This document shows positions 7,890-54,810 of a stretch of DNA of 64,000 bases, piece by piece (positions within the stretch are counted from its first letter, which is position 1; every line of letters starts with the position of its first letter). The DNA lies in assembly GCF_023276435.1 (NCBI RefSeq), contig NZ_JALLPO010000022.1, forward strand, positions 1 through 64,000, read 5' to 3'. The notes beneath the pieces are model-generated. The model ran no database searches. It saw only the letters and a list, made by a program, of their open reading frames with translations, and had not been told where the DNA came from. The position numbers and the translations under genes were made by a program. The stretch is from Sphaerisporangium perillae. Its GTDB lineage: Bacteria > Actinomycetota > Actinomycetes > Streptosporangiales > Streptosporangiaceae.

Positions 7890-7934
7890 TGGAGCGGGTG
7901 ACGGGAATCGAACCCGCGCTGTCAGCGTGGGAAG
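7890..7934 (-). repeat. tRNA-Gly 3'-half scar A (attachment site)
   Basis: These 45 bases copy the 3' half of tRNA-Gly(CCC) (54,581-54,654), including encoded CCA and the T-arm; one base differs in the anticodon arm. The 5' half is absent. Downstream, TCGAGTGCGCATGGCTCCCC (about 7,989) weakly resembles the left arms described at 50,229. It marks the outermost integration boundary. Confidence 0.85.
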
Positions 7935-35919: not shown

Positions 35920-35964
35920 TGGAGCGGGTGACGGGAATCGAACCCGCGCTGCCGGCATGGGAGT
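35920..35964 (-). repeat. tRNA-Gly 3'-half scar B (attachment site)
   Basis: TGGAGCGGGTGACGGGAATC and AACCCGCGCT copy the acceptor/T-arm side of tRNA-Gly exactly; the anticodon part is diverged (GCCGGCATGGGAG). Downstream CTTCCCCCTCTGAGC also follows scar C. It ends the 28-kb island. Confidence 0.88.
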
Positions 35965-38894: not shown

Positions 38895-39065
38895 GGTACA
38901 ACGAAGGCGCACAACGGGTTACGGGCCATCGGCGAGCGTGGCAACTCGCTGCTGAAGATGACCTTCCGAGCACTGCGCAACGTCGGCCTCGATCCCTGGC
39001 GCATCGGTGCGATCGTCGCCGCAGCGCTGGTACTCCTGCACTACGACCACGCCCGTACGACATGA
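38895..39065 (+). pseudogene. IS5-type transposase C-terminal fragment
   Basis: KAHNGLRAIGERGNSLLK, then WRIGAIVAAALVLLHYDHAR before the stop, match the end of DDE transposases of the IS5 group. The 5' portion is replaced by the repeat at 38,863. Confidence 0.75.
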
Positions 39066-39209
39066 CGACACTCAGTGATCAAACCCTTGCACGGAAAGGC
39101 TCATTGCCTCGATCAGAGGGATGCCTCGCTGGGAGACTGGCGGCATGGCCAATTCGTTGTCGTTGGTGCGCCGCTTACGGCCCTATGAAGAGCTCGGAAG
39201 AGACGCATA

Positions 39210-39247
39210 CCCCTCGTCACCCTGGTTAATGGCCCGCTAATGGCCCG
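39210..39247 (+). repeat. Integrase-arm-like direct repeat (TAATGGCCCG type)
   Basis: CCCCTCGTCACC is followed by TAATGGCCCG-C-TAATGGCCCG (39227-39247), two identical 10-mers 11 bp apart. It shares layout with 42,457 and 48,146. Confidence 0.75.
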
Positions 39248-39440
39248 CGATCCGGCGGAGGGAGGTTAGGCGCTGTTTCGCTGGCGAGCCGCGTGGCGCG
39301 GGCGGTCAGGTGCCGGCGCTCGGGCAAGGTGGTGGCCCGCCGGGCGGCCTCCCGGTAGCTGGCCGCTGCTGCGGAGTACTCGCCGGCCAGTTCCAACAGA
39401 TGTGCCCGGGTCGCCAGTAGGCGGTGGTGGCGTGCCATCC
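39226..39440 (-). pseudogene. C-terminal fragment of an ECF sigma factor
   Basis: RLLATRAHLLELAGEYSAAAASYREAARRATTLPERRHL is the C-terminal TPR-like extension found in ECF42-type sigma factors. The sigma-2 and sigma-4 regions are gone. The fragment is bounded on both sides by direct-repeat arms. Confidence 0.65.
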
Positions 39441-39462
39441 GGTGTTGGCGTCGGTGCGGTCG

Positions 39463-39525
39463 AGTAGCCGTGAGCCGCCGTGAGTATCCGGGGTTCTCCC
39501 CTGTTCTGGCACGGATCTGGCACGC
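39463..39525 (+). repeat. Integrase-arm-like direct repeat (TCTGGCACG type)
   Basis: GAGTAGCCGTGAGCCGCCGT, related to the leader at 46,158, precedes TTCTGGCACGG-ATCTGGCACGC (39504-39525), spaced 11 bp. Confidence 0.7.
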
Positions 39526-39601
39526 GATCATGGTCCTGACCTCTTCCTATCAGGACCATCCCGGCTGTGATCAGGAGCGTACGGCCAGCCGCCGACCAGT
39601 G

Positions 39602-39922
39602 GTGGACGGTGTGAGCGTGAGTGGTTATGAGGGGCTGTTGCAGTACCCCGGAGCCACCGTCAGAGTGAGCCACGTGATCGAGATCGACGGCCCTTTCTAC
39701 CGCCGCGTCAGCGAACCTGGCGAGAGTGACATGCACTCTGACCGCTGGATCCGGCACACCACGACCGCGAGCATCCTGCTCGTCGCTGACGCCGCCGTCG
39801 TCTCTTCCCGGCACATGCACAAGCTCACGTTGGTGCATGGCGAGGACCCGTTGGCCGCCGCCCTCATCCTCAGGGAGCGATCAGAACCGGAGTCCCCAGA
39901 GGCAGTCCTGCCAGCACCTTGA
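39602..39922 (+). CDS. Hypothetical protein
   Basis: About 106 residues starting at one of several GTG codons. It contains VIEIDGPFYRRVSEPGESDMHSDRW and TTASILLVADAAVVSS. I do not recognise a domain. The 3' end overlaps the convergent L,D-transpeptidase gene by 52 bp, which lowers confidence, though the protein composition looks natural. Confidence 0.4.
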   Translation: MDGVSVSGYEGLLQYPGATVRVSHVIEIDGPFYRRVSEPGESDMHSDRWIRHTTTASILLVADAAVVSSRHMHKLTLVHGEDPLAAALILRERSEPESPEAVLPAP

Positions 39923-40649
39923 GCGCGCGAGCAGGTACCCTGACACAGCCGTGCGTGACTGCCTTGCCGAACACCTTCCGGTCCGGCCAGCCGTGGAAGG
40001 CGACCGTGCCGGGACCGCCGCCGAAGGTGTCGAGCGTCGGCGAGTGCGTGCCGAGTGGCAGGATCAGCGGGCTGTAGGTCTTCTTCTTTGGCGACATCAG
40101 GGCCAGCAGGAAGGTCCTGCCCGCCGGGGTGGGCGTCTCAGGGCCGCCGATGGCCACCGTCCAGGTGCCGAGCTTCTTGCTCGCGTTCATCACGGTCAGT
40201 CGCCTGGTGCCCAGTTTCACGATGGCGCGGTAGCGGCTGCGCGCCTTCTTCAGGCCCTTGGCCTTGATCCAGCCGGTCACGTGGTTGGGCTTGCTGGGCA
40301 GGAGCACGCGGTACCAGCCCTTGCGCGCCTCCACCACCGGCACCCAGGTCTGGTTGCCGAGCTGCTTCGCCGGGAGGGTGGCCGCGGGCTTGCCGCCGGG
40401 CAGGGCGTAGACGGCCACCGTGCGTGCGGGGTGGACCACGATGCCGCTCAGCTTGCCGTACGTGTCGGTGTCCTGCGGGAGGCCGCTCAACGCCGTGAAC
40501 GTGGTGGCCTTGGGGAGTGCGGTCGCCGTGACCGAGGCGGCGGCGGCGAGAGTGACGGGCGACGCGACGACGCTGGCGGGGGTCGCGGCGACGAGGCTCA
40601 TGGCGACGAGCGCGGCGCCGATGAGTCGGCAGGGGGCATCGAGCGGCAC
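39870..40649 (-). CDS. L,D-transpeptidase (YkuD) with signal peptide
   Basis: A 259-residue exported enzyme starting at GTG 40649 behind AGGAG. The signal peptide is at 1-29. A probable SH3-like region is at ~65-130 (VAVYALPGGKPAATLPAKQLGNQTWVPV). The YkuD domain (~140-258) has the catalytic signature HGWPDRKVFGKAVTHGCVRV with nucleophile Cys. It crosslinks peptidoglycan 3-3. It is an intact gene within the otherwise degraded scar region. Confidence 0.92.
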   Translation of the reverse strand: MPLDAPCRLIGAALVAMSLVAATPASVVASPVTLAAAASVTATALPKATTFTALSGLPQDTDTYGKLSGIVVHPARTVAVYALPGGKPAATLPAKQLGNQTWVPVVEARKGWYRVLLPSKPNHVTGWIKAKGLKKARSRYRAIVKLGTRRLTVMNASKKLGTWTVAIGGPETPTPAGRTFLLALMSPKKKTYSPLILPLGTHSPTLDTFGGGPGTVAFHGWPDRKVFGKAVTHGCVRVPARALKVLAGLPLGTPVLIAP

Positions 40650-40816
40650 GATCGGCTCCTGATGTTCTATGGCACTTACGACACGAGCGTGTAACCATCT
40701 GGCCCCGCTGGATAACGGTTTGGAACGTTTGAAGGCCCTTGGCCAGCGGGTGTGACATTTTTACACATATGAGCCTAGTGAGGCTCAAGCTCTCTCATAC
40801 ACCCCGAGGTGCGGTC

Positions 40817-41599
40817 GTGACACCCCCCAGACTCTCTTCAGTCCGTCGCTGGGCAGCAGCGGCACTCATGCTCGCGGTGGCAGCACTCGCGGTGCTCGCC
40901 ATCTCCAATACGGCCTCAGCTGGAGCGGTCCAGGGGAAGCCGCCCGGCGACAATGGCGACGTCAAGATCCACAAGTGGACGACGCCGGAGGACGACCAGC
41001 GCGACGAGCCCCACGTCTGCGTGTTCTATCTGGTCGGGTTCAACTTCGACGCGGTCGAGCAGGTGAGCTGGGAGATCAAGTCCTGGCCGCCCACCGGCGA
41101 CAAGACCACCGTGAAGAGCGACACCCTCGTGCTCGACAAGGACGGGCATGGCCGTAGCGTTGACATGACCCTGCCGAACGGGCACTACAAGCTGTTCTGG
41201 ACCTTCGCGGGGAAGCATGGCGCGGCCAAGCAGAAGGTGTTCTGGGTCGAGTGTGAGCCCACGCCCACGCCCACCCCGACGCCCACGCCGACGGTGACGC
41301 CCTCCCAGCCGCCGACGCCGACGCCGACGGCCACTCCGACTCCGACTTCCACACCCACTGCGACGCCCACTGCGACGCCCACGGTGACCCCCACTCCCAC
41401 GCCGACGCCCACCTCGACGCCCACTTCGACGCCGACGCCGAGCAACACGCCGACCCCCACCCACTCCGGCCAGGGTGATCACGGTACGGTGATCCACGAC
41501 TGGATCGAGTGGGACGAGAACGTCACGCCGACGCAGGACGAGCCCAAGCCCGCGCCCACCCCGACGCCGGTGAAGTCCGATATCCCGGTCACTGGCTGA
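40817..41599 (+). CDS. Secreted Pro/Thr-repeat surface protein ending in PVTG
   Basis: About 260 residues: a signal region ([26 protein letters not shown]), then a globular domain of ~115 residues ([33 protein letters not shown]). A long (PT)n stalk follows, and the chain ends DIPVTG at the stop codon. The tail looks like a sortase or anchoring motif lacking the usual membrane helix. GTG 40817 follows GAGGTG; an ATG at 40769 is an alternative. A terminator follows. Confidence 0.78.
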
Positions 41600-41612
41600 C
41601 AGGCGACGCCGA

Positions 41613-41653
41613 ACGACGGGGCCCGGATCAACGCGATCCGGGCCCTCCGTCGT
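41613..41653. terminator. Hairpin terminator
   Basis: ACGACGGGGCCCGGATC and GATCCGGGCCCTCCGTCGT form a long stem with a 5-base loop and one bulge; convergent genes end on both sides. Confidence 0.9.
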
Positions 41654-41657
41654 CTTC

Positions 41658-41876
41658 TCAGCTCCAAACGAGCATGCGCAGCGGATCCGCGAGCATCGCC
41701 CCCACGTCGCGGAGGAACAGCGAACCGAGCTCGCTGTCGATGATCCGGTGATCGAACGACAACGCCAGCGTGGTCACCTTCTGTACGACGAGCTGGCCGT
41801 CGACGACCCACGGCGAGTCCTTGATCTGGCCGAACGCCAGGATCGCCTGCTCGGAGGGCCGACCCCTTACGTCGAG
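41658..41876 (-). pseudogene. C-terminal fragment of a 2-oxoacid dehydrogenase E2 acyltransferase
   Basis: EQAILAFGQIKDSPWVVDG and LALSFDHRIIDSELGSLFLRD are the end of the acyltransferase domain, including the DHRxxD motif (usually DHRxxDG; here DS). All upstream domains are missing. The break coincides with the arm-like sequence at 41,874. Confidence 0.85.
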
Positions 41877-41937
41877 TGCCACTGACTCCCCGTGACTCTC
41901 TGCTGGTCTCTGTTCGAACGGGCATGCAACGGACACG
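41874..41937 (+). repeat. Integrase-arm-like direct repeat (ACGGGCAtG type)
   Basis: GAGTGCCACTGACTCCCCGT is related to the leaders at 46,158 and 50,229. It is followed by ACGGGCATG (41918) and ACGGACACG (41929), 11 bp apart. It is a degraded arm abutting the E2 fragment. Confidence 0.6.
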
Positions 41938-42227
41938 CGGCTTCGAAGGCTGCGGGTGGAAGTGGACCCATGCTCATGGCAGGGGTGAGGAGCGGCGTAG
42001 TTCATCACGGCTACGCCGACAGGATGCCGCCAGGCTTCGAGTTGGATACCCGCGAGGCCTTGATCGCTCGCCGAACGATGGGGCAAGCATCTGCTTCTAA
42101 ATCATGCGCGAACATATATGTCACGTCCGGTTTCCGCTGTAATTGCTAGTCCGAATCGCACCAGCCCTTGTCGCGCGACCGCTCGTAACGTGTTCAGCGT
42201 ATGGAAATTACAACGAGGGAGGACGAT

Positions 42228-42430
42228 ATGGATCTCCAGCTTTCAGGTCGGGTTGCGGTTGTCACCGGTGCTTCCAAGGGCATCGGCCTGGCCGTCACTC
42301 GTACCCTTCTCGACGAAGGCGTCCATGTCGTGGCCGCGTCACGGAAGAGCACCCCGAACTGGAGGCGCTCGGCGGCGACCTGATCCACGTTCCGGCCGAC
42401 CTGATGGACGCCGAGGCTCCAGGCCGGTAG
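42228..42430 (+). pseudogene. SDR N-terminal fragment with frameshift
   Basis: MDLQLSGRVAVVTGASKGIG is a clear SDR start with a ribosome site (GGGAGGA) upstream. The frame breaks near 42,340 and continues in another frame as ELEALGGDLIHVPADLMD before homology ends at the arm at 42,438. It cannot encode a full enzyme. Confidence 0.85.
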
Positions 42431-42437
42431 GCCGGTC

Positions 42438-42493
42438 CTGAGTGAGCGTGATTGTCCCCTCGTCACCCTGTCTAATTGCACGCTAATTGCACG
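42438..42493 (+). repeat. Integrase-arm-like direct repeat (TAATTGCACG type)
   Basis: CTGAGTGAGCGTGATTG and CCCCTCGTCACC precede TAATTGCACG-C-TAATTGCACG (42473-42493), two identical 10-mers 11 bp apart. Confidence 0.75.
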
Positions 42494-42502
42494 ACGATCA
42501 AG

Positions 42503-42826
42503 ATGGAGCTTGTGGAGGACTACCAGCGGGCTTTCATCGGACGGATGGTCGGACGCCTGGACGCGTACGCTGCGGGTGAGGTGACGTTGTCCAAGTTGGT
42601 GGAAGATCTTCGGGGATTGTTCGAGGTCGCTGATCCTCGGGAGTGGAGTATCCGGGACGCGTTCCAAGATCTGTGGGTGGATCTCGACGCCGAATGTGAG
42701 CTGAGGACAGAGCCGTGGGCTCCGCCAGGGTTGGCTGACGATGCTCACCTGCGCCGGACTATCGATGCGCTTCACTCATGGGCCTCGCGCATAGCAACGG
42801 GGGCACCCACGGGCCGGCAGCTGTGA
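42503..42826 (+). CDS. Hypothetical protein of an actinobacterial immunity-like type
   Basis: About 107 residues (MELVEDYQRAFIGRMVGRLDAY..., LVEDLRGLFEVADPREWSIRDAFQDLWVDLDAE), an acidic, all-helical protein without signal. Similar short acidic proteins are often annotated as hypothetical in actinomycetes. I cannot assign a function. The start follows the arm closely (10 bp), so its promoter may have been replaced. Confidence 0.6.
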   Translation: MELVEDYQRAFIGRMVGRLDAYAAGEVTLSKLVEDLRGLFEVADPREWSIRDAFQDLWVDLDAECELRTEPWAPPGLADDAHLRRTIDALHSWASRIATGAPTGRQL

Positions 42827-42895
42827 GCGCTCCCTGTCGATCATCCTGGAGCCGGAGTGCCCCCGCCGGAGGCTTGGTTTTCTATGGCTCTGCGG

Positions 42896-43345
42896 CTACA
42901 CCGTGCCGTTGAGGTGCTGGCGGACTGTGGTGTCGTTCTCCAGGATGTGGTCGATGGTCTCCCAGTAGTCGGAGAGCCAGGGATGCACGAGGGCTTCTTC
43001 GCGGGACAGCTTGCGTCCATAGAGGGGCTCATCGGGTGCGACGTCCGCGCCCTTGACCAGGGAGCAGGCCGGGCCGGGTTGTCCCTCGACGGGACCGACA
43101 CGGCATCCGAATGTGACGCGGTTCGGGCTGGGGCGACTGACGGGCTCGCCCGGCGCCCAATTGTCATCGATGATCACGTCGATCCATGCTTCATGGAGTC
43201 CATCGTGGTGGTAGCAGGATGCATAGTAGATCGCGTAGGCGCCGTCGTCATTGTTGATGAATCCTGTGACGCGGTCAACGTGGGTATGGCAACAGTCGCA
43301 GACGCCGGTCCGAATGTTTCTATCTGGATCGATTCGTAGTCTCAC
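42896..43345 (-). CDS. Conserved hypothetical protein with CxxC
   Basis: A 149-residue protein. The N-terminus has GVCDCCHTHVDRVTGFI, a Cys/His cluster like a treble clef or small zinc ribbon. The middle is FINNDDGAYAIYYASCYHHDG and the tail WLSDYWETIDHILENDTTVRQHL. Related proteins are widespread in Streptomyces-like genomes with no known role. It looks intact. Confidence 0.7.
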   Translation of the reverse strand: MRLRIDPDRNIRTGVCDCCHTHVDRVTGFINNDDGAYAIYYASCYHHDGLHEAWIDVIIDDNWAPGEPVSRPSPNRVTFGCRVGPVEGQPGPACSLVKGADVAPDEPLYGRKLSREEALVHPWLSDYWETIDHILENDTTVRQHLNGTV

Positions 43346-43513
43346 GATGGAGCTGGGATTGATCGATGAGTACGAGTTCGTGGTGCAGCCCAGGCTCGCG
43401 GGCCACGGGCCGACGTTGTTCGCCGGACTATCGAAGCATGTCGACTTGAAGCTCGTGAGCCGGCTGGAGTTCGGCTTGGGGCGGTGGCGATGCGGTACGA
43501 GCCGAGAAGGTAG
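43335..43513 (+). pseudogene. RibD_C/dihydrofolate-reductase-like C-terminal fragment
   Basis: LTMELGLIDEYEFVVQPRLAGHGPTLF and DLKLVSRLEFG match the C-terminus of RibD_C proteins. A frameshift near 43,485 puts the expected last strand (AVAMRYEPRR) in the next frame, where it ends at a TAG. The N-terminal two thirds are missing. Confidence 0.75.
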
Positions 43514-43722
43514 CCATCGGGCTTGTTAGCCCGAGCCGGCCGCATCATGGAGCCCTGGTTCGCGGCTCTTGAGCGCCCCACCGCAGCGGTTCCTCCGCAG
43601 TCAGGTCGACAAATGAACCCGGCCGCCTAACTGGAAACCCCCAGCTGAACGACCGGGTCAACGGCTACTTCGCCCCTCGGAGTTCAGGGCCGTATATGCG
43701 GATGACCGCTGCTCAGGCGAAA

Positions 43723-45375
<1,653 letters not shown>

Positions 45376-45494
45376 TCATGGGTCTCACCTCCTCGGGTGG
45401 TGTCACGGTCAACTGCAAGCTACAAGCCCGAGCATCACCCCGTCCAATCATTTCCCAGCCACGTGATCACGACTCCAAACGGGCCCCTGCGGTT

Positions 45495-46005
45495 GCAGGG
45501 CGATCTCGGCAATGCGGCGGTCGGCAACGGTCGACGAGGTCTTTGATCTCGCTGACCGGGTGGGACGGCGCCCGGTCGGTAACCTCCGAAAGCTCAACGC
45601 CGGCTTCTACCGGCTGCGGTTCCAGCGGAACAGCGAGATGCGCACTCATCCGGAGACCTTCGCGACGAGGAACGCGGCCGAAGGAACGCTGTGGACCATG
45701 GGCGTCGAGGGCCGGGCCGACTGCGTCCATGATCGACGCTTCCGCGCCCTGGTTCTCCTCGCTACGTTCGCGAGCCTGCGGTGGGGGGAGGTGAGTGCGC
45801 TCCGTCGTACGGATGTCGACCTCGACGCGGGGACGGTGCGGGTCCGGGCGGCCTTCATCGAACGGTCGACCGGGGGACTGGTTCTCGGCCCTCCCAAGTC
45901 CAAGGCAGGCCGTCGTTTCGTCGGCATTCCCAAGGTGATCGTTCCGGCACTGCGAGAGCACCTGAACACCTACGTCAAGGACGAACCCGATGCGCTCGGC
46001 CGAGA
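45495..46005 (+). pseudogene. Tyrosine integrase fragment of slot B-C
   Basis: It starts at RSATVDEVFDLADRVGRRP and includes an inserted segment (VGNLRKLNAGFYRLRFQ ... ETFATRNAAE). It continues into the catalytic core VLLATFASLRWGEVSALRR and GPPKSKAGRRFVGIPKVIV, then breaks after YVKDEPDALG. The catalytic HxxR and Tyr are missing, as is the N-terminus. The break lies directly at the terminator/att block, so the 3' end was lost by deletion. Confidence 0.85.
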
Positions 46006-46012
46006 AACGATC

Positions 46013-46050
46013 AAGGCCCGGGTCGGGAATCATCCTCTGACCTGGGCCTT
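46013..46050. terminator. Terminator hairpin at scar C
   Basis: AAGGCCCGGGTC and GACCTGGGCCTT form a 12-bp stem with one mismatch. Confidence 0.8.
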
Positions 46051-46056
46051 TGTGTG

Positions 46057-46100
46057 TGGAGCGGGTGACGGGAATCGAACCCGCGCTGTCAGCTTGGGAA
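46057..46100 (-). repeat. tRNA-Gly 3'-half scar C (attachment site)
   Basis: This is an exact copy of the tRNA-Gly 3' half from CCA to the anticodon TTCCCAAG region; the 5' half is missing and replaced by ATCGGCTAGTG. Confidence 0.92.
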
Positions 46101-46157
46101 TCGGCTAGTGATCTTCCCCCTCTGAGCTGGGAAACGGGGATGCAGCTCTGCGGTGGT

Positions 46158-46222
46158 CGAGTGACCGTGAGTCCCCGTGAGACCCCACTGATCGCCGTTC
46201 AATCTGGCACGCATCTGGCACG
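46158..46222 (+). repeat. Integrase-arm-like direct repeat (ATCTGGCACG type)
   Basis: GAGTGACCGTGAGTCCCCGT leads to ATCTGGCACG-C-ATCTGGCACG (46202-46222), then AAGTCTCGA and GTCAAGACA. The same frame of conserved blocks surrounds a different half-site at 50,229. Confidence 0.8.
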
Positions 46223-46265
46223 AAGTCTCGACGTCAAGACACCGCTCGACTACTTCACCCTGGAC

Positions 46266-46388
46266 TAATCAACCCTCGCCGCGACCTGCAACGAAACCCT
46301 GAACCACCGTGATGACCTGCAATGGCCGTCTCGGTGGTTCTCGGTATTTCGCAGCTGATCACGGTGTCATGTGCCCTGGTTGTGCCCT
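46266..46388 (-). repeat. Second arm family, copy 1 (paired with 51,354)
   Basis: About 123 bp, over 80% alike by eye to 51,354-51,476. It contains GAACCACCG and CGGTGGTTC as an inverted pair, then GTGCCCT at 46371 and again at 46382, 11 bp apart. On the minus strand this reads AGGGCAC twice, so the arm is in opposite orientation to the others. It starts at a TAA stop codon. Confidence 0.75.
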
Positions 46389-46524
46389 CCGGTCCGGGAT
46401 CTGGGTAGGTCGCGGATCGGCAGCCAGCCTGCGCCGGCGGCGACGGCAGCCACAACCAGCGTGACCCAGGGCACCCACGGCCTTGCACGCCGCATTTGCG
46501 CGGTGCTCGCTGTAGCTTGGGTCC

Positions 46525-47046
46525 ATGGTGATCGACACGGGCGCTCACCTTGCGCAGAGGCATTCCTGGTACTCCGGGGTGCTGATCACGATGATGGCGG
46601 TACTCGTGAGCTTCCCGCTTGCCGGTGCTGGCATATCTCAGAGCATCGTCACCGCCGTCCTCGCCTTAGTCACCATCGCGGCCCTGTGCACGCGGTCCGC
46701 GTCGGCGATCCGGGCCACGGTGTTCATGGACGTGCTGTTTCTCGTCTTCACGATCGGCATCGGGCTCGGATGGCCTCCTGCCATCACCACGATGCTTGTC
46801 TGCGTGCTCCCGCTCGCGGCCCTGCTGGCCTGCGGGCGCGTGCCGTCGCTGAGGCTGGCGGCGCCCTGGCTGAGGATCGGTCGGCTGACCCCCGACATCC
46901 CGTGGCTGTCGGCCGCCACCATAGGAGGAAGCGCGGTCGCGCTGACGCTCTGGGTGATGGCCGTCAAGCCGGCCCCTTCCCCGTACCTGCGGCAACTGCA
47001 GGATCTCCGCTCCATCGCCCCGAGGGATCACACGTCGTACATCTGA
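46525..47046 (+). pseudogene. Truncated CPBP-like intramembrane protease
   Basis: 173 codons with five hydrophobic helices, ending near SAATIGGSAVALTLWVMAVKPAPSPYLRQL. This resembles the N-terminal half of CPBP (CAAX-type) proteases; the catalytic EExxR/FxxxH half is absent and the tail (RSIAPRDHTSYI) is unrelated. It may still be expressed as a membrane protein, but not as a protease. Confidence 0.55.
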
Positions 47047-47319
47047 CGGCCAGAAAGCGCTGACCTGGGCCGTTTGGTCGCTCCCGCCGTTGACCTGTGG
47101 CTATGGCTCTCGCTGGTTCCTCGCACCACGCGGGGCACTGTGTCATCTGGTCGGGCCTCATTCCGGATGGATCGTCACTACGTTCCAACGTGCTGGCATG
47201 CCGTCGCCATGGCACTCCACCGCGGTCGCTGACGTGACGCAATCAGCATGCGCCATAAGGGACGAGTTCTATGATCAGGTTCGTCCTGATCGTTGAGATT
47301 CGGAGAAGATGTCAATCTC

Positions 47320-47715
47320 ATGCGCCGTGCCATGGTCCTTCTGGGTGGCGTCGCCCTCGCCGTCGGCGCGTTCGCCCTCTTCTACCGAGGCCTGGGACAA
47401 CCGTTCATCCGCGGTTACGTGAGCGACGTCGGCGCCACCATGCTGGTCTACGCGTTCTTGGGGCTGCTGTGGCGCACCACCGCCGCACGCCGCACCCTGG
47501 CCACGGCCGCGATCGCCGCCGCCGTCGAGTTCTACCAAATAGTCGGCATGACCCCGCCGGGCATCGGCGGTATCCTGGTCGGCGCGTTCCCCGACCCATG
47601 GGACCTGGTCGCCTATGCCATCGGTGTGGTCGCGGCCCTGGCCTGGGAACGCCGATTGGTCCGATCCGGTGATAGACCGGCTGACTCTCGGACTCCGCCC
47701 CCACCGGCACGCTGA
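47320..47715 (+). CDS. DUF2809-family membrane protein
   Basis: About 131 residues with three to four helices: AMVLLGGVALAVGAFALFYRG, GATMLVYAFLGLLWRT and WDLVAYAIGVVAALAWERR. The Arg-Gly-Tyr-Val-x-Asp-Val and FPDPWD segments fit DUF2809. Function unknown. ATG 47320 is preferred over TTG 47293. It is one of the few intact genes of slot C-D. Confidence 0.7.
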   Translation: MRRAMVLLGGVALAVGAFALFYRGLGQPFIRGYVSDVGATMLVYAFLGLLWRTTAARRTLATAAIAAAVEFYQIVGMTPPGIGGILVGAFPDPWDLVAYAIGVVAALAWERRLVRSGDRPADSRTPPPPAR

Positions 47716-48031
47716 CGGTACGGATGCCCCACAGCGGCGAGGTCATCGGGTTCGTCCTGCGCGTCGAGCTCCGGATCTCCGGTGCGGTAGTTGTCAGGGG
47801 AGTCCTTCCAGTGGGGGAGCGGAGATTCGAACAGTTGTCCCGACGGATATATGTGCGCATGTTTGTCTGTCGCCAGGATCGCCGACGGTCACCGCCGACC
47901 ACCCTGGACCGCATGCGCGTTTGTGCCGCAGCTCTCATCGGTGGGCGTGGCCGAAAGTGGCGCGTATCAGAGTGGGCCGTAGACCTGGCCGAAAGTCCTG
48001 CTCCAACGCGTTACGCCTTAAGTGCAGTGGT

Positions 48032-48075
48032 TGAAGCGGGTGACGGGAATCGAACCCGCGCTGTCAGCTTGGGAA
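48032..48075 (-). repeat. tRNA-Gly 3'-half scar D (attachment site)
   Basis: AGCGGGTGACGGGAATCGAA and CCCGCGCTGTCAGCTTGGGA are identical to the tRNA; the CCA end is altered (TGA for TGG) and no terminator hairpin remains next to it. Confidence 0.85.
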
Positions 48076-48136
48076 TTGCAGGGATGCCGGCTCGTGGGGG
48101 CGTTGACCTGCGGCTGAGGACGGTCATGAGTGACCG

Positions 48137-48181
48137 TGGTTGACCCCTCGTCACCGCCCTTAATGGCACGCTAATGGCAGG
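48137..48181 (+). repeat. Left arm of element D-E (TAATGGCACG type)
   Basis: CCCCTCGTCACC then TAATGGCACG-C-TAATGGCAGG (48161-48181). The half-site equals that at the right end of the same slot (50,035). Confidence 0.8.
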
Positions 48182-48389
48182 ACGATCAACCCGTGACCTG
48201 CCGTTTCTCGCGCGACGCGCGCACCCCGCCCGACTGATCATCCCGTCTGCCGTCGGCTCGCCCGAAGGGGAAGCGGGCCAGGGCCACGGGCACCAGATGG
48301 AGCGCCCCTGCCGGAGGCAGAACTTGTTTGCTGGAGGGTTGCTCACCTTTCTCTGTGCGGTGTTCATCAGACCGTTCTAGAATCGGCCG

Positions 48390-48950
48390 ATGATCTCGCT
48401 GACGACTGAGCGGCTCGTCCTGCGTGGCCCAAACGAGGGCGATATTGATCCGCTCGCCACGATGAATGCTGACCCGGAGGTCATGCGCTACATCGGGGAT
48501 GGGTCGGTGTTGCCGTTGGATCGTGATCGAACTGCGGCTGGAGTTGCCCGTGCTCAGCGAGAATGGGAAGAGTGCGGCTTCGGCCTGCTCTCCGTGATCG
48601 TGCGGGAGACTGGGCAGCTCGCCGGGTGGGTGGCGCTGACGGTGCCGACCTTCCTTCCCGAGATTCTTCCTGCGGTGGAGATCGGGTGGCGTCTGAGTCG
48701 CCAACACTGGGGGGCCGGCTACGCCACGGAGGCCGCTGGGGCGCTGCTGAGATTCGGGCTCATCGACTGTGGTCTCGACCGCGTCGTTAGCGTCCGGCAT
48801 GTCGACAACCTTCGTTCAAAGCGAGTCATGGACAAGCTCGGCATGCGGTTTGGGCTCGAAACCGTCATGCCTGGGCATGGCCAACCTGTCGCGGTCCACG
48901 AGATCACCCGTGCTGAGTTCGATGCTTTCGAGATGACGACGGCTCCGTAG
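48390..48950 (+). CDS. RimJ/RimL-type GNAT acetyltransferase
   Basis: A 186-residue acetyltransferase: LTTERLVLRGPNEGDIDPLA, EIGWRLSRQHWGAGYATEAA (acetyl-CoA site) and SVRHVDNLRSKRVMDKLGM. This type modifies N-termini of proteins or small amines. It looks intact and is the only cargo gene of slot D-E. Confidence 0.9.
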   Translation: MISLTTERLVLRGPNEGDIDPLATMNADPEVMRYIGDGSVLPLDRDRTAAGVARAQREWEECGFGLLSVIVRETGQLAGWVALTVPTFLPEILPAVEIGWRLSRQHWGAGYATEAAGALLRFGLIDCGLDRVVSVRHVDNLRSKRVMDKLGMRFGLETVMPGHGQPVAVHEITRAEFDAFEMTTAP

Positions 48951-49095
48951 GACGGCCTCACGCGCGAGTTCTTTTGGCGTAAGGTCCGTGTGTCGGGCCA
49001 GGTCGCGGCCCGAGTGGCGGGCGCGCGCGAGAACGGCCCCCAGGCCGCACGCGCAGCGTGCGGCCCGCAAGCTCGGGCCGCGTGGCGGCGCGCAG

Positions 49096-50026
49096 CGGCG
49101 CCCTTGATGGCTGCCAAGGCGTACCGGCTCCTGCGGGCGGTCCTGATGACCGCGAGCGAAGAGGATCACATCCTTCAACGCAATCCATGTCGGATCCGCG
49201 GGGCCGGTGACGAGCACGCGCAGGAGCGCTCGGTGCTCACGGTGGGGCAGGTATTCGAGCTGGCTGAGCGTGTTGGCCGTCGACCCGTGGGCAACGTGCG
49301 GGGCCTCAAGGAGGGACAGGGCTACCGGCTCAGATTCCAGCGGCACGGCGAAATGCGGACCTATCAAGAGGTTTTCGCCACGCGGGCCGATGCAGAACGG
49401 GCGCATTGGGCGTTGGTCGGCAAGGGGCAAGCTGACTGCACTCACGATCGGCGGTTCCGTGCGTTCGTCCTGCTGGCCACCTTCGCGAGCCTGCGATGGG
49501 GAGAGATGATCGCATCGATCTCAAGGCGGGAACGGTGCGGGTCCGCGCGGCCTACGTCGAACGGTCGACCGGCCCGCTGGTGCTCGGGCCTCCCAAGTCC
49601 AAGGCTGGCCGGCGCATCGTCGGCATCCCGCAAGCGATCATTCCGGCGCTCCGCGAGCACTTGGCGGTCTTCGTCAAGGCGGAACCTGATGCGTTGGTCT
49701 TCTCGGGGATCAAGGGTGGTCCGCTTCGGCGTAGCGGGTTCAACCGGCTCAGCTCGTGGCCGGAAGCCGTGCGGGCCATCGGAGCGGAGGGCCTCCATGT
49801 TCATGATCTCCGGCACACCGGAAACATGATCGCGGCTGAGTCCGGTGCCGGCCTCAAAGACCTCATGGCCAGGATGGGCCACGACAACGTCAGGGCCGCG
49901 ATGATCTATCAGCACGCCGTACGCGGGGCCGACAAATCGATCACGGACGCGATCGACAAGCACATCACCGGACAGGATGACGAGGACGATGACGGGCTCT
50001 CCGGGGCGCTGGTGCCGGTCGGCTGA
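49096..50026 (+). pseudogene. Tyrosine integrase of element D-E, frameshifted, with internal insert domain
   Basis: It begins AAKAYRLLRAVLMTASEEDHILQRNPCRIRGAG (core-binding domain); the N-terminal arm domain is missing. After VFELAERVGRRP an inserted module, VGNVRGLKEGQGYRLRFQRHG ... VFATRADAERAHW, precedes DRRFRAFVLLATFASLRWGE. A small deletion near 49,500 shifts the frame. The rest (AGRRIVGIPQAII, HVHDLRHTGN, MARMGHDNVRAAMIYQHAV) is complete to the stop. The active-site Arg/His/Tyr of the second half are visible. Confidence 0.88.
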
Positions 50027-50034
50027 TCAACACT

Positions 50035-50055
50035 TAATGGCACGTTAATGGCACG
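50035..50055 (+). repeat. Right arm of element D-E (TAATGGCACG type)
   Basis: TAATGGCACG-T-TAATGGCACG, two identical 10-mers 11 bp apart, 9 bases after the integrase stop and just before the terminator and scar E. Confidence 0.85.
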
Positions 50056-50082
50056 CGGAGATCAACTAGCCCAAACAAGATC

Positions 50083-50121
50083 AAAGCCCAGGTTCCGAAT
50101 TCATCGGATGACCTGGGCTTT
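50083..50121. terminator. Terminator hairpin at scar E
   Basis: AAAGCCCAGGT and ACCTGGGCTTT form a perfect 11-bp stem. Confidence 0.85.
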
Positions 50122-50127
50122 CGTCGT

Positions 50128-50172
50128 TGGAGCGGGTGACGGGAATCGAACCCGCGCTGTCAGCTTGGGAAG
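50128..50172 (-). repeat. tRNA-Gly 3'-half scar E (attachment site)
   Basis: An exact 3' half of tRNA-Gly including CCA, ending at CAGCTTGGGAAG; the 5' half is replaced. Sequence and terminator match scar B in all but two of about 80 bases. Confidence 0.92.
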
Positions 50173-50228
50173 TCTTTCGACACCATGCAGCCTGAGCTGC
50201 AAAAACGCTGACCTGGGCATATGCGGGT

Positions 50229-50293
50229 CGAGTGACCGTGAGTCCCCGTGATTCCCTGCAGGTCGCCGACCGTACGGGCACGCGACGGGCACG
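50229..50293 (+). repeat. Left arm of element E-F (ACGGGCACG type)
   Basis: GAGTGACCGTGAGTCCCCGT leads to ACGGGCACG (50274) and ACGGGCACG (50285), 11 bp apart, then AAGTCTCGA and GTCAAGACA as at 46,223. The half-site matches the right end of this slot (54,490). Confidence 0.85.
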
Positions 50294-50519
50294 AAGTCTC
50301 GATGTCAAGACACCCGCTGGCCGATGAGCCCGGCCATCGCCTGGCAGATCAAGGTGCAGGCGGTGGCAGGCTGACCCTCATGATGTCGATATCCCAGCCC
50401 GAACCGGCGCGCGCTGCCATGACAGTGGGCGGGAACTGTCGAAGTTTCTCCCTGCCGGTCGGCGGGGGCCGGGAGAGCCGCATGATGACATGGTCGCCTG
50501 CTCCCCGGCCTCCCGGAGA

Positions 50520-50933
50520 TCAGTTCTCGCGGATCCAGGCGGGCGTGATCCGCTGCTCACGGAATCGCCAGCCCGCCGGCGTCCGCACCACGGTGCCCGC
50601 CATGCGCAGGCCGCCTGTGAAGTGGGGTGCTTGGCCGTCGCGGTAGTAGAACACGAGCGAGTACGCCGAAGCAGTCGCCTGATCGCCGTTGACGTCCACC
50701 AACAGGTCAGTGGTCAGGTGCTGGGCTTGCTGCCCCTCGACCTCACTCTGTCGCATAAAGCCGACGACCTTGTCGATGCCGCGGAGTTCGCCCCCGCGCG
50801 GCGAGTGCACCGCCACATCGTCGGTGAAGACGGTGCCTGCATCCTCCCATCGCTTCTCGTCGAGCAGGCGTGCGAAGCGGGCGAACAGGTCGGCGATCTC
50901 GATACGGTCGGCGATCAAAGTATCCGTGGACAC
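50520..50933 (-). CDS. NTF2/SnoaL-like protein
   Basis: A 137-residue protein of the SnoaL_4 type: IEIADLFARFARLLDEKRWEDAGTVFTDD and GDQATASAYSLVFYYRDGQ. These small alpha+beta barrels act as cyclases, isomerases or ligand binders; the substrate is unknown. The promoter on its right (50,934-51,020) is AT-rich and carries two operator-like elements. Confidence 0.88.
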   Translation of the reverse strand: MSTDTLIADRIEIADLFARFARLLDEKRWEDAGTVFTDDVAVHSPRGGELRGIDKVVGFMRQSEVEGQQAQHLTTDLLVDVNGDQATASAYSLVFYYRDGQAPHFTGGLRMAGTVVRTPAGWRFREQRITPAWIREN

Positions 50934-50956
50934 GGTGTCCTCTTTCGTTCGTTGAG

Positions 50957-51017
50957 TTAACGTTCGACTCTTTAACGTTTCTGGCGCGAACGAACTATAT
51001 CGTTAGTCGGACTAACG
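50957..51017. promoter_or_regulatory. Operators upstream of the SnoaL-like gene
   Basis: TTAACGTT occurs at 50957 and 50972, and CGTTAGTcggACTAACG (51001-51017) is a perfect 7-3-7 inverted repeat, typical of TetR-family sites. The matching regulator gene would be expected divergently at 51,020 onward, but an integrase fragment lies there instead. Confidence 0.65.
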
Positions 51018-51062
51018 CAACAGGTAGAATCAGCGTCATGAAGAGCAGGGCCCAAGCCGCGG

Positions 51063-51239
51063 ACATGCCCGGCAAGCGCATCGTCTCCGTGCCCGAACTC
51101 CTCCTGCCGGAGCTCCGGACGCACCTGAACACATACGCGGGGGAAGGGGACGACGGCCTGGTGTTCATCGGCCCCAAGGGCGCCCAGCTCCGGCGGGCGA
51201 ACTTCACCCGGACATGGAGCAAGGCGATCACCGCAGCAG
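51063..51239 (+). pseudogene. Internal fragment of a tyrosine integrase
   Basis: KRIVSVPELLLPELRTHLNT and GLVFIGPKGAQLRRANFTRTW match the middle of the integrase at 53,768 closely. Neither the N-terminal part nor the HDLRHT...Tyr part is present. Confidence 0.85.
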
Positions 51240-51353
51240 TGGTGAGCATCCAGCGGCGGTGACGGCCATCGTGTTCTCCGAGGGGAGGAGTTGGCGTTCG
51301 GGGAGCGGGGGGTGCAGTTTGCGTATGCCTTGCCTGACGACTTGCGGTTGAAG

Positions 51354-51476
51354 TAATCAGGCATGGCCGCGACCTGCGACAGAACCCTGAACCACCGCGA
51401 TGACCTGCACCAACAGTCTCGGTGGTTCTCGGCATTTCGCGGCTGCTCACAGTGTCATGTGCCCTGACTGTGCCCC
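51354..51476 (-). repeat. Second arm family, copy 2 (paired with 46,266)
   Basis: It has the same 123-bp length and layout as 46,266-46,388: inverted pair GAACCACCG/CGGTGGTTC, then GTGCCCT at 51459 and GTGCCCC at 51470, 11 bp apart. It also begins at a TAA stop codon, after a short orphan coding tail (YALPDDLRLK). Confidence 0.75.
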
Positions 51477-51556
51477 TCCGGCCAGGCCCAGTCCCAGGCA
51501 TGCTGAACGCTTACCGTCGTTAGTGTGCCCTCCGGCTCTTGTGACAAGATCGCGGG

Positions 51557-51958
51557 ATGCTGCGACTCACCGATTTCATCATCGACTGCCCGGACACGAT
51601 GAAGCTGGCGGCCTTCTACTCCGAGGTGACGGGCCGTCCGATCAAGGAAGGCAGCCACGAGAACTGGGCCGGCATCAAGTTCGGCGAGGTCGAGTTGGCC
51701 TTCATCCGGGTGGACGACTACCGCGCTCCGCAGTGGCCCGATAGCGAGCACCCCAAGCAGTTCCACGTCGACTTCGAAGTGGACGAGATCGAGTCCGAGC
51801 AGCGCCGCGTCCTCGACCTCGGTGCGACGCTGCAGCAGGACTTCATCGGCCCCGACGGCTACGGCTGGCGGGTCTACACCGACCCGATCGGCCACCCCTT
51901 CTGCCTGTGCCGCAACAAGGGCGTCATCTGGACCGACCAGGGCCCGATCTGGCCCTAG
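51557..51958 (+). CDS. VOC/glyoxalase-like protein
   Basis: A 133-residue vicinal-oxygen-chelate protein with two beta-alpha-beta-beta-beta modules: FIIDCPDTMKLAAFYSEVTG, QFHVDFEVDEIESEQRRVLDLGA and GWRVYTDPIGHPFCLC. It belongs to the glyoxalase-like group with uncertain substrate. It is intact, with the stop codon touching an IS end at 51,957. Confidence 0.88.
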   Translation: MLRLTDFIIDCPDTMKLAAFYSEVTGRPIKEGSHENWAGIKFGEVELAFIRVDDYRAPQWPDSEHPKQFHVDFEVDEIESEQRRVLDLGATLQQDFIGPDGYGWRVYTDPIGHPFCLCRNKGVIWTDQGPIWP

Positions 51959-51982
51959 GGGCCTGTTTGGAGTCGTGATCAG
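51957..51982. mobile_element. IS5-like terminal sequence remnant
   Basis: GGGCCTGTTTGGAGTCGTGA lies directly after the VOC stop codon and resembles GGGCCTGTGTGTGGCTGTGA at 53,548, which abuts a transposase tail. No transposase remains here. Confidence 0.5.
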
Positions 51983-52077
51983 ATGGCGGGCCGCGCTGCC
52001 AAAGGATCGACCGCGTAGCGGTTTCGGCGTCACCACTGGGGCTATTTGACACTGCGGCGGGAGTGAGGCCGGCGGCC

Positions 52078-53001
52078 CTACCCTGCTGACGTGTGCGCTG
52101 TGCCCCCGGCGCGGATGCGCTGGCTGAGGAAGAGAGCCGCGCGGTCCAGTGCCTCGTCGGCCTCGTCCAGGATGCCGGCGAACGACTGGAACACGTGCGA
52201 CACGTCGGCGGTGATGTCCAGGATGACGTCCACTCCGGCTGCCCTCGCACGCGCGGCCAGGCGCGTGGAGTCGTCCAGCAGGATCTCGTTGGTGCCCACC
52301 TGGATCAGCATCGGGGGGAAGCCGGTCAGGTCGGCGAGGACGGCCGGGCTGAGCAAGGGCTGGTGAGGGTCGGCTCCGGCGAGGTACATGGCTCCGGTGT
52401 GTTCCACGGACTTGCGGGTGAAGATCGGGTCGATGCCTTCCTTGGCGTCCATGCTCTCGCCCGTTCGGGTGGCGTCGAGGCCCGGGGAGAACGCCACGAT
52501 GGCGGCGGGCAGCGGGAGGCCCGCGTCGCGGGCGGCCAGGCAGGTCGTGACGGTGAGGCCGCCCCCGGCCGAGTCCCCGGCGAACATGATGGCCGAAGGG
52601 TCCTCGCCGCTGTCGAGTAGGCCGCGATAGGCGCTCAGTGTGTCTTCGATCGCGGCCGGGAACGGGTGCTCGGGGGCAAGCCGGTAGTCCAGCGAGTACG
52701 CCCCGAAGCCGGTCTTGGCCACGAGGTGTCCCGTCAGCGACAGGGCGGTCTCGGGGGAGCCGAACACCCAGCCGCCGCCGTGGAAGTACAGGATCGTCCC
52801 GGCGCGCGGCCCGTTGTCCGGCTCGACATGCAGTGCGGGTCGGTTGCCGAGCGTTGTCTGCGTGGTGCGGATTCTGTCGGGCACGATCATCTGGGCCATC
52901 AGCGCCTTGAATCCGGCTCGGATCGCCTCGACCGACCGGGGGCCCTCGGGTCGCGGCTGCCGCATCATCGCGTCGACCTGGGCGCGCTGTTCCTTGCTCA
53001 T
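52078..53001 (-). CDS. HSL-family alpha/beta hydrolase (carboxylesterase)
   Basis: A 307-residue esterase of the hormone-sensitive lipase group: oxyanion motif YFHGGGWVFG, nucleophile FAGDSAGGG, and the His in DVSHVFQSFAG. It hydrolyses short acyl esters or lactones. ATG 53001 has GGGAG upstream; longer frames would overlap the divergent MarR gene. The 43-bp gap to marR suggests the esterase is regulated by it. Confidence 0.9.
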   Translation of the reverse strand: MSKEQRAQVDAMMRQPRPEGPRSVEAIRAGFKALMAQMIVPDRIRTTQTTLGNRPALHVEPDNGPRAGTILYFHGGGWVFGSPETALSLTGHLVAKTGFGAYSLDYRLAPEHPFPAAIEDTLSAYRGLLDSGEDPSAIMFAGDSAGGGLTVTTCLAARDAGLPLPAAIVAFSPGLDATRTGESMDAKEGIDPIFTRKSVEHTGAMYLAGADPHQPLLSPAVLADLTGFPPMLIQVGTNEILLDDSTRLAARARAAGVDVILDITADVSHVFQSFAGILDEADEALDRAALFLSQRIRAGGTAHTSAG

Positions 53002-53044
53002 GGGTGTGCTCCCGCGGTAAGTAGATTCCATTACACTATATGCC

Positions 53045-53521
53045 GTGGCATCTACATCGGCCGGTGACGCGATCGACCTCTCGGGCTTCTTCGCCGACCT
53101 GGTTCGATGCGAGACGCGGCTGTACAACGCCCTCAACGACCGTCTCCGTGAGCGGCACGGGATCGTCACCTCGCAGTTCGAGGCCCTGCGCTACCTGCGC
53201 GACCACCCCGGGTCCCGCGTGGCGGACCTTGCCGCCGAGTTCGCCATCGGCATCGGGGCGACCAGCAAGAGCGTCGACCGTCTGGAGAAGCAGGGATGGG
53301 TCGTCCGGCAGCCGAATCCCTCGGATCGCCGGTCATCGCTGCTGGCTCTGACCAACGACGGCTTGAAGTTGGTCGATGCGGCGGAGGGCACCTTCACCGA
53401 GCGGCTGGCCGAGTTGATCGGAGACACTCTCGACGGGCCCCCGATGTCGACCGTTGCGCAGACCCTCTCGGAGCTCCGCTCCGTACTGGAACGCGACCAG
53501 ATCGGCATGCCCACAGGCTGA
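53045..53521 (+). CDS. MarR-family transcriptional regulator
   Basis: A 158-residue regulator from GTG 53045. The winged helix is GIVTSQFEALRYLRDHPGSRVADLAAEFAIGIGATSKSVDRLEKQGWVVRQPNPSDRRS, with the DRR wing motif. It is divergent from the esterase by 43 bp, so one operator could repress both. The inducer may be the ester substrate or product. Confidence 0.92.
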   Translation: MASTSAGDAIDLSGFFADLVRCETRLYNALNDRLRERHGIVTSQFEALRYLRDHPGSRVADLAAEFAIGIGATSKSVDRLEKQGWVVRQPNPSDRRSSLLALTNDGLKLVDAAEGTFTERLAELIGDTLDGPPMSTVAQTLSELRSVLERDQIGMPTG

Positions 53522-53546
53522 CGCGCATGCGCAAGCCAGCTGCCCG

Positions 53547-53767
53547 TAGGGCCTGTGTGTGGCTGTGATCAACCAGTTGCCTGCAGGAGGTCGTTGATCC
53601 AGATCATCGAGGCGCGGAGGTGGAGGCCGGCGAGGTAGCTCTCGGGCGTCTTGTCATATCGAGTCGCGATGCCCCGCCAGGCCTTCAGCTTGTTGATCAG
53701 GCGCTCGACGGTGTTCCGCTCCTTGCAAAGACCGGCGTCGTGGCTTGCGGGCCGGCCGCCCCGGCTG
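53547..53767 (-). mobile_element. IS5-type element remnant (transposase tail and one end)
   Basis: The end sequence GGGCCTGTGTGTGGCTGTGA is followed on the minus strand by a transposase tail: CKERNTVERLINKLKAWRGI and KTPESYLAGLHLRASMIW. The tail begins abruptly at RGGRPA, at the junction with the integrase at 53,768. Confidence 0.8.
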
Positions 53768-54500
53768 CCCTTGCGTACCGCCTGCTTAAGGCCATTTGCA
53801 ATACAGCTGTCAGCGACGAACTGATCAAGTCCAACCCGTGCACCATCAAGGGGGCAGGCAAGGAAGAGTCGCCGGAACGGCCCGTGCTCACCATGAAGCA
53901 GGTCTTCGTGCTCGCCGACGCCATCGATCCGCGATACCGGATGCTGATTCTCCTGGCCACCTTCGCAAGCCTGCGGTGGGGTGAGCTGGCGGCGCTGAAG
54001 CGCAAGCATGTCGACCCGAGAGCAGGGACTATCCGGGTCGTAGGAACCACGACCGAGCTCAAGGACGGCTCGGTCACTATCGGGCCGCCCAAGTCGGAGG
54101 CCGCAAGCGCATCGTCTCGGTTCCTGAACTCCTCTTGCCTGATCTCCGCATGCACCTGGGCACGTACGCGGGGGAGGGGGATGAGGGCCTGGTGTTCATC
54201 GGGCCGAAGGGTGCCCAACTCCGGCGGGCGAACTTCACTCGGACATGGAGCAAGGCGATCAGCGCAGCCAAGCTCACTGGCTTCCACTTTCATGATCTGC
54301 GGCACACGGGGAACACCTTCGCCTCGCAGTCCGGTGCGACTCTGCGAGAGCTGATGAACCGCATGGGCCACTCGACCACGCGGGCCGCGCTGATCTACCA
54401 GCACACCGCCATGGAGCGCGACCGGGCCATCGCCGACGCGCTGGGCAAGCTCGCCAAGGAGGCGCTGAGCAAGGAAGATCCAGATGGATCGGGCACGTAA
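53768..54500 (+). pseudogene. Tyrosine integrase of element E-F, 5'-truncated and frameshifted
   Basis: It starts within the core-binding domain (AYRLLKAICNTAVSDELIKSNPCTIKGAGKEE) at the IS junction. VFVLADAIDPRYRMLILLATFASLRWGEL shows the ordinary catalytic fold without the insert seen in the other two integrases. A one-base shift near 54,100 (after GPPKSEA) breaks the frame. The second half is complete: HFHDLRHTGN, MNRMGHSTTRAALIYQHTA (catalytic Tyr). Confidence 0.9.
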
Positions 54501-54508
54501 CGGGCACG
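54490..54508 (+). repeat. Right arm of element E-F (CGGGCACG type)
   Basis: CGGGCACG-TAA-CGGGCACG, 11 bp apart. The integrase stop codon lies inside the repeat spacer. It matches the half-site of the left arm at 50,274. Confidence 0.85.
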
Positions 54509-54536
54509 GAAGATCGAAATGGTGCCAGAAAAGATC

Positions 54537-54574
54537 AAGGCCCGGGTCGGGAATCATCCTCTGACCTGGGCCTT
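54537..54574 (-). terminator. Terminator of tRNA-Gly
   Basis: AAGGCCCGGGTC and GACCTGGGCCTT form a 12-bp stem with one mismatch, starting 6 bases beyond the tRNA CCA. Confidence 0.85.
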
Positions 54575-54580
54575 TGTGTG

Positions 54581-54654
54581 TGGAGCGGGTGACGGGAATC
54601 GAACCCGCGCTGTCAGCTTGGGAAGCTGATGTTCTGCCATTGAACTACACCCGC
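54581..54654 (-). tRNA. tRNA-Gly(CCC)
   Basis: A complete 74-base cloverleaf with encoded CCA: acceptor GCGGGTG/CACCCGC, D-arm GTTC...GAAC, anticodon arm TCAGC-TTCCCAA-GCTGA giving anticodon CCC, and T-arm GCGGG-TTCGATT-CCCGT. It decodes GGG. It is the only intact copy among six and the apparent target of all integrations in the window. Confidence 0.97.
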
Positions 54655-54810
54655 GTCGATCAGTTGCTGACGACGGACTTACTCTAGCGGAACTTGGGGC
54701 GTGCCACCTCCCCCGGTGGGGTGTGAGTTGGCGGTGGGGACGGCGGGGCTGGAGGTGAATGGGGTTCGGTGTGTCGGTGCGGGCTGCCGTGTGGTTGGTA
54801 GGTTGCTGAG

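Follow-up and report, generated by a model that had tools for sequence, protein, structure and literature searches.

Paired 10-base half-sites, repeated directly 11 bp apart, were analysed in Sphaerisporangium perillae (assembly GCF_023276435.1, contig NZ_JALLPO010000022.1, positions 1 to 64,000; this whole stretch of 64,000 nucleotides is called the window) and at the ends of related mobile elements in genomes of soil actinomycetes. The pairs are very probably arm sites of an integrase whose specificity lies in its N-terminal AP2-like (AB) domain. Specificity was found at half-site positions 4, 5 and 8, each of which tracks one AB residue. Arg or Lys at residue 5 goes with G4 and any other residue with a base other than G (rule A); Arg at residue 9 goes with C8 and any other residue with A8 (rule B); Arg at residue 17 goes with G5 and any other residue with T or C (rule C). 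Across 130 distinct integrases with a pair at the end of their gene, representing 260 half-sites, 2, 0 and 2 exceptions to the three rules were counted.

In the window, a sequence-only reading had listed nine paired places, and all nine are present. The exact motif GGCACG-N5-GGCACG occurs five times, against 0.08 expected. A motif-free scan, run over 39,001-54,700, looked for 10-mers that recur 11 bp on with at least 9/10 identical bases; it returned 8 places against a Markov expectation of 0.80 (maximum 3 in 40 resamples), and these are eight of the nine. Half-sites described as near-identical within a pair are exact in 4/9, differ at one base in 4/9 and at two bases in 1/9. The general form proposed, NNNNGGCACG, does not hold for 39,227 (TAATGGCCCG twice) or 42,473 (TAATTGCACG twice), which by the residue-base code would carry other specificities rather than decay, and the pair at 41,917 is decayed. 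Flanking sequence types two of the nine as right arms (50,035 and 54,488, at integrase gene ends) and seven as left arms. The agreement proposed between 48,161 and 50,035, and between 50,273 and 54,488, is correct. The pairs are as follows.

39227..39247, + strand: left-arm pair TAATGGCCCG.C.TAATGGCCCG, C8 specificity, relic without recognisable core (motif-free scan; flank like 48,129-48,156, repeat family D11)
39504..39524, + strand: left-arm pair TTCTGGCACG.G.ATCTGGCACG, relic (exact motif and motif-free scan)
41917..41937, + strand: decayed left-arm pair AACGGGCATG.C.AACGGACACG, G4 specificity (aligned in repeat family D7)
42473..42493, + strand: left-arm pair TAATTGCACG.C.TAATTGCACG, T5 specificity, relic (motif-free scan, repeat family D11)
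46202..46222, + strand: left-arm pair ATCTGGCACG.C.ATCTGGCACG (exact motif and motif-free scan)
48161..48181, + strand: left-arm pair TAATGGCACG.C.TAATGGCAGG of the small element 48,036-50,171 (motif-free scan)
50035..50055, + strand: right-arm pair TAATGGCACG.T.TAATGGCACG of element 48,036-50,171, 8 nt past the integrase stop (exact motif and motif-free scan; row L038)
50273..50293, + strand: left-arm pair TACGGGCACG.C.GACGGGCACG of element 50,132-54,624 (exact motif and motif-free scan)
54488..54508, + strand: right-arm pair ATCGGGCACG.T.AACGGGCACG of element 50,132-54,624, overlapping the integrase stop codon (exact motif and motif-free scan; row L068)

Counts of the motif were less telling. 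With two mismatches allowed, the fixed motif was found 34 times in the window against 31 expected, which is uninformative. The exact motif occurs 36 times genome-wide against 11 for a reversed control; in many of 40 relatives its count did not exceed that control, so motif counts alone are little proof, and bare-motif counting across genomes was rejected as evidence.

Intact relatives came from whole genomes queried with integrases and from a single scan of named genomes; a scan of viral contigs gave 80 loci, three of which (L308-L310) entered the held-out set described below. Pairs were searched from -50 to +70 nt around the stop codon of the integrase gene (int). The sequence-only reading had turned on whether intact relatives carry the pairs, and they do: a right pair was present at the int end in 95/104 distinct integrases of a first set and 35/49 of a later one, against 2/390 control windows inside int genes. 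The stop codon itself is touched by the pair in 74/130 integrases. Positions 4-8 are identical between the two half-sites in 125/130 right pairs, and the whole half-sites in 61/130. For L518 and L522 no pair was seen. The related integrases L274, L276, L396 and L397, which have Trp5 or Lys5 and Ser17, had none at the int stop. Among phages, 256 records were matched as mycobacteriophage relatives; a motif search for an integrase open reading frame returned none in the two mycobacteriophages opened.

The far end of each element was located only through its core repeat (25 or more identical bases), independently of any pair. A core repeat was present for 72 integrases, exactly one in 45 cases and several in 27. 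A left pair lies past the core in 45/45 single-core elements, mostly 123-150 bp past it. Left and right pairs agree at positions 4-8 in 39 of these 45, against a permuted mean of 12.5 and a maximum of 23 in 10,000 permutations; that the ends of an element carry matching pairs, as had been proposed, is thus borne out well beyond the window. In four of the six non-agreeing elements (L103, L480, L503, L510) the left arm is of another class, and in two (L220, L224) it has drifted. At multi-core loci an agreeing left arm was found in 25/27, often among arms of other classes. Where cores are stacked at one tRNA (L098, L134, L487, L502 and others), left arms of several specificities were seen within 20 kb, and for some integrases there the nearest left arm belongs to another class.

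The tRNA adjoining the right arm of the 130 was Gly(CCC) in 57, Ala(TGC) in 26, Gly(TCC) in 16, Val(TAC) in 11 and others in 6; none was found in 12, and 2 sequences were too short. Seven arm classes occur among the Gly(CCC) elements alone and three among those at Ala(TGC). Arm class is independent of the target tRNA.

Further repeats, of TGACC or TCCCC type and about 10 bp apart, were observed immediately ahead of the left pair but not ahead of the right pair; copies in the window lie at 46,161-46,180, 48,129-48,156 and 50,232-50,251. They vary in sequence from class to class, and in elements whose integrase bears the insert described below, the copy closest to the pair has a different appearance. 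Such repeats look as would be expected of excisionase sites.

The three residues were first spotted by eye in aligned N-terminal domains, and the rules were fixed before the held-out loci were fetched. In the discovery set (190 half-sites) there were two exceptions to rule A (L193), none to rule B and two to rule C (L108). In the held-out set (35 integrases, 70 half-sites) there were no exceptions to any rule; 14/35 of these integrases are at least 90% identical to the discovery set, and the set was drawn partly by queries with Arg9 or Ser17. For the 21 held-out integrases below 90% identity, exceptions were again 0/42 half-sites for each rule. One half-site of L410 has C4 where the strict wording of rule A had T. 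Positive cases in the held-out set comprise 12 half-sites with G4, 12 with C8 and 10 with T5, and among the 130 integrases Arg/Lys5 is carried by 31, Arg9 by 22 and a residue other than Arg at 17 by 21. The proposed correlation of the sites with the N-terminal domain therefore held in new sequences.

Discovery and held-out rows were combined for mutual information. The best alignment column for position 4 is residue 5 (normalised mutual information 0.36 vs 0.20 for the next column), for position 5 residue 17 (0.62 vs 0.20) and for position 8 residue 9 (0.89 vs 0.43). At positions 6 and 9 the measure is uninformative, with 4 and 1 sequences only. No protein partner stood out among the alignment columns for positions 1-3, where associations are weak and tree-like. 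The sequence-only reading had described a constant GGCACG core with a free specificity tetramer before it. That division is not upheld, since positions 5 (G/T/C) and 8 (A/C) lie inside the core and co-vary with residues 17 and 9, and within the tetramer a clear protein partner was seen for position 4 alone. Candidate pairs were scored solely by their resemblance to GCACG at positions 6-10; this scoring is biased against C8, and rules A and C cannot be its product.

The left arms gave a further set of sites, in which 85, 86 and 87 of 90 half-sites obey the three rules; failures stem from L103, L480, L503, L510 and L108. Positions also vary separately, with T or G at 4, G, T or C at 5 and A or C at 8, and a double variant, L169 (Arg9 and Ser17), has the site TAATTGCCCG. 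In Nonomuraea gerenzanensis (L523) Arg9 accompanies the site TAATGGCCCG. The Micromonospora rosaria plasmid pMR2 encodes an integrase 33% identical, with Ser5, Leu9 and Ser17. Its left pair, found by script, is CTATCGCACG.T.AGATCGCACG and its right pair, read by eye, is TAGTCGCACA.G.ACGTTGCACG; T4, C or T at 5 and A8 are in line with the rules.

Common descent was addressed with a tree of the core-binding and catalytic parts of the same combined rows, from which the AB domain and the insert were excluded; this is a quick tree with some long branches, that of L410 being very long. On it, residue and base changes number 13 and 13, 11 and 11, and 6 and 7 for the three rules, and supported non-overlapping contrasts were concordant in 7/7, 6-7/7 and 4/4. 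The residue-base association is not explained by the tree of the rest of the integrase.

The integrases fit the AB-domain tyrosine recombinases (IntTn916-like), with a three-strand plus helix AB domain, a core-binding and a catalytic domain. PF14659 and PF00589 scored above cut-off in 5/5 proteins scanned, and the best PDB match was Tn1549 Int (E 3.5e-13). For the AB domain itself no Pfam match was returned in these five proteins at E up to 1, and a sequence search with one AB domain for a solved relative gave nothing useful. Its AlphaFold2 model (mean predicted local distance difference test score 91.4) has strands at 5-8, 14-19 and 25-32 and a helix at 35-51. Sequence matches to the Tn916-type AB domain (1bb8) and the plant AP2/ERF domain (1gcc) are weak; the best match of an AB profile to solved structures was AtERF1 (1gcc, E 0.39), ungapped over the relevant stretch. 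In that alignment residue 17 falls on Glu160, which we take to be a DNA contact, residue 9 on Arg152 and residue 7 on Arg150. Arg150 and Arg152 of AtERF1 are described as touching DNA in the available text of PMC3602543. In each of the three rules Arg is matched to a guanine, namely G4, G5 or the G facing C8. Residues 5 and 9, like positions 4 and 8, are four apart, which would fit a strand that follows the groove.

A second AB-like (AP2-like) domain stands at the start of the catalytic domain in 40/130 integrases, called by length (more than 425 residues after the motif); in L039 it covers residues ~183-239, and in the window it falls within 45,512-46,105 and 49,095-50,026. The two AB-type domains are homologues (hhalign probability 97.6%); the inserted one has a similar fold in the model and was gained or lost twice on the tree. 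Insert-bearing L108 has G4 sites, and the insert is therefore not confined to the TAAT class.

Four other accounts of the pairs were weighed. Chance, or the composition of GC-rich DNA, could draw on the two-mismatch count and on the relatives that do not exceed the reversed control. It has practically no claim against the five exact and eight motif-free repeats and the agreement of left and right ends, and is already excluded for the listed sites except the decayed pair at 41,917. That the inserted domain reads the pairs is hardly credible: its homology to the AB domain and the presence of pairs in insert-bearing elements speak for it, whereas 90/130 pair-bearing integrases are too short for an insert by the length criterion, and all 15 aligned inserts have Arg at the residue equivalent to 17, even though T5 sites occur in several of the elements. 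On this ground the insert was rejected as reader; it does not read the pairs by the three-residue code, and the suggestion that it tracks the sites was not upheld. The sequence-only reading had left the choice between integrase and excisionase sites undecided. Sites of an excisionase (Xis, or recombination directionality factor, RDF), correlated with the integrase through int and xis travelling together, are improbable. Excisionase sites are likewise direct repeats about one turn apart, according to the available text of PMC7498355, and direct repeats stand beside each left pair; against this, the pairs flank the core on both sides, one at the int stop, while the TGACC and TCCCC repeats keep to the left. 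The best-associated columns, moreover, are three AB residues rather than a general linkage signal, and the association is unexplained by the tree of the remaining protein.

More weight is due to the possibility that AB domains are swapped with arm sites as a cassette, the three residues being markers of the module and not readers, although we think this rather unlikely. The many AB-residue changes on the tree of catalytic and core-binding parts (13, 11 and 6) might come from recombination, and the right pair adjoins int. A cassette sits less well with the separate combination of the three positions, as in L169, with the far weaker association of the remaining AB columns, with left arms that match although many kb from int, and with the alignment of residue 9 to the DNA-touching Arg152 of AtERF1.

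The pairs, with direct half-sites at 11 bp flanking a tRNA-derived core on both sides, are most likely arm-type docking sites of tyrosine integrases. We infer that the integrase binds them and that the AB residues contact the bases they track. The attachment site attP has four half-sites, two per side of the core, which would let each of the four integrase protomers in an intasome take one. Residue 5, on strand 1, would read position 4, with Arg on G4; residue 9, just after strand 1, would read position 8, with Arg on the guanine of the other strand opposite C8; residue 17, on strand 2, would read position 5, with Arg on G5. Where the residue changes, all four half-sites change with it, so that elements with one shared attachment core keep distinct arms. 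For the full form of this proposal we have a modest preference: a modular AB code in which strand 1 lies along the major groove with one residue per base pair (residue i to base i-1: 5 to 4, invariant Arg7 to G6, 9 to 8) and residue 17 of strand 2 addresses base 5. Such a code would make arms predictable and give elements separate addresses on a shared tRNA core, with arm differences separating neighbours, and stacked elements may be recombined one by one.

The window contains the following further features of such a locus.

46061..46100, + strand: attachment (att) core copy, tRNA-Gly 3' part, 0 mismatches over 40 bases
48036..48075, + strand: att core copy, 0 mismatches over 40 bases
50132..50171, + strand: att core copy, 0 mismatches over 40 bases
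54581..54654, - strand: tRNA-Gly(CCC), attachment site; core 54,585-54,624, 0 mismatches
45512..46012, + strand: integrase remnant with AB-like insert, 3' end truncated
49095..50026, + strand: frame-broken integrase remnant with core-binding/catalytic part and AB-like insert, N-terminal AB domain missing
53880..54500, + strand: frame-broken integrase remnant without insert, approximate start
46161..46180, + strand: Xis-like repeat GTGACCGTGAGTCCCCGTGA beside a left pair
50232..50251, + strand: copy of Xis-like repeat GTGACCGTGAGTCCCCGTGA beside the 50,273 left pair

Broken integrase genes terminate just upstream of the pairs at 50,035 and 54,488. These genes and the copies of the tRNA-Gly(CCC) 3' part mark the window as a pile of remnants of elements using this tRNA; it is a tRNA-Gly hot spot holding relics of several arm specificities. 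An AB profile matched the window only at 45,467-46,105, read as the insert. No N-terminal AB remnant was found in the window, and the code therefore cannot be tried on its own integrases. Similar arrays occur on other contigs of the same genome, one of them at tRNA-Gly(TCC).

Two further tRNA-Gly core copies, at 7,894-7,933 (1 mismatch) and 35,924-35,963 (4 mismatches), have terminator-like flanks and no recognisable pairs. They are att relics, so that the pile may span ~47 kb. Copies of a 98-base terminator-plus-core sequence at 46,003-46,100 and 54,527-54,624 (family D2) are 99% identical and have different integrase ends attached; they can be read as the scar of a recent recombination or excision. 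The att relics enclose cargo genes at 43,726-45,360 (- strand), 48,390-48,947, 51,557-51,955, 52,081-53,169 (- strand) and 53,045-53,518; the products listed are an FAD-binding aromatic hydroxylase, a GNAT acetyltransferase, a glyoxalase-like protein, an alpha/beta hydrolase and a MarR regulator.

Paired arm-type sites are of a known kind. According to the available text of PMC3203893, the Cluster K1 mycobacteriophages CrimD, Angelica, Anaya and Adephagia have two pairs of 11 bp repeats around the core; position 7 of the arm site varies from phage to phage, with AB residues 17 and 19 put forward as candidates. Paired arm sites flanking the core, and residue 17 among the candidates, are shared with the family studied here. 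As far as that text goes, the K1 case comprises four close phages, one site position and no test, with P3/P4 inverted, whereas the actinomycete family gives three residue-base links over 130 integrases, held-out and tree tests, and pairs that are all direct. Cluster J mycobacteriophages share the pair layout: imperfect direct repeats of 10 bp, in pairs, occur to either side of a tRNA core next to int; in the available text their authors saw no systematic site differences matching AB differences (PMC3706429). In the actinomycete integrative and conjugative elements pSAM2 and pACPL, the core, at the 3' end of a tRNA, is bordered by arm-type repeats, and those of pSAM2 are reported, in the part of the article available, to be bound by its integrase and essential for efficient recombination (PMC3364876). 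These sites differ from the pairs described here in sequence (GTCACCCAG..), in a spacing of 12 (as read here) and in that text giving no specificity code. Neither the tested three-position recognition rule nor a multi-position arm code at this scale was found in the literature searched, which covers few subscription journals.

It has long been asked how an integrase finds the ends of its own element at an attachment site used by several elements, and arm sites are hard to spot by sequence because they differ between elements. A code of three residues and three bases makes arms predictable in this integrase family, and specificity becomes testable with short DNA and a domain of 60 residues. It also separates arm specificity from attachment-site specificity, as the seven classes at tRNA-Gly(CCC) alone illustrate.

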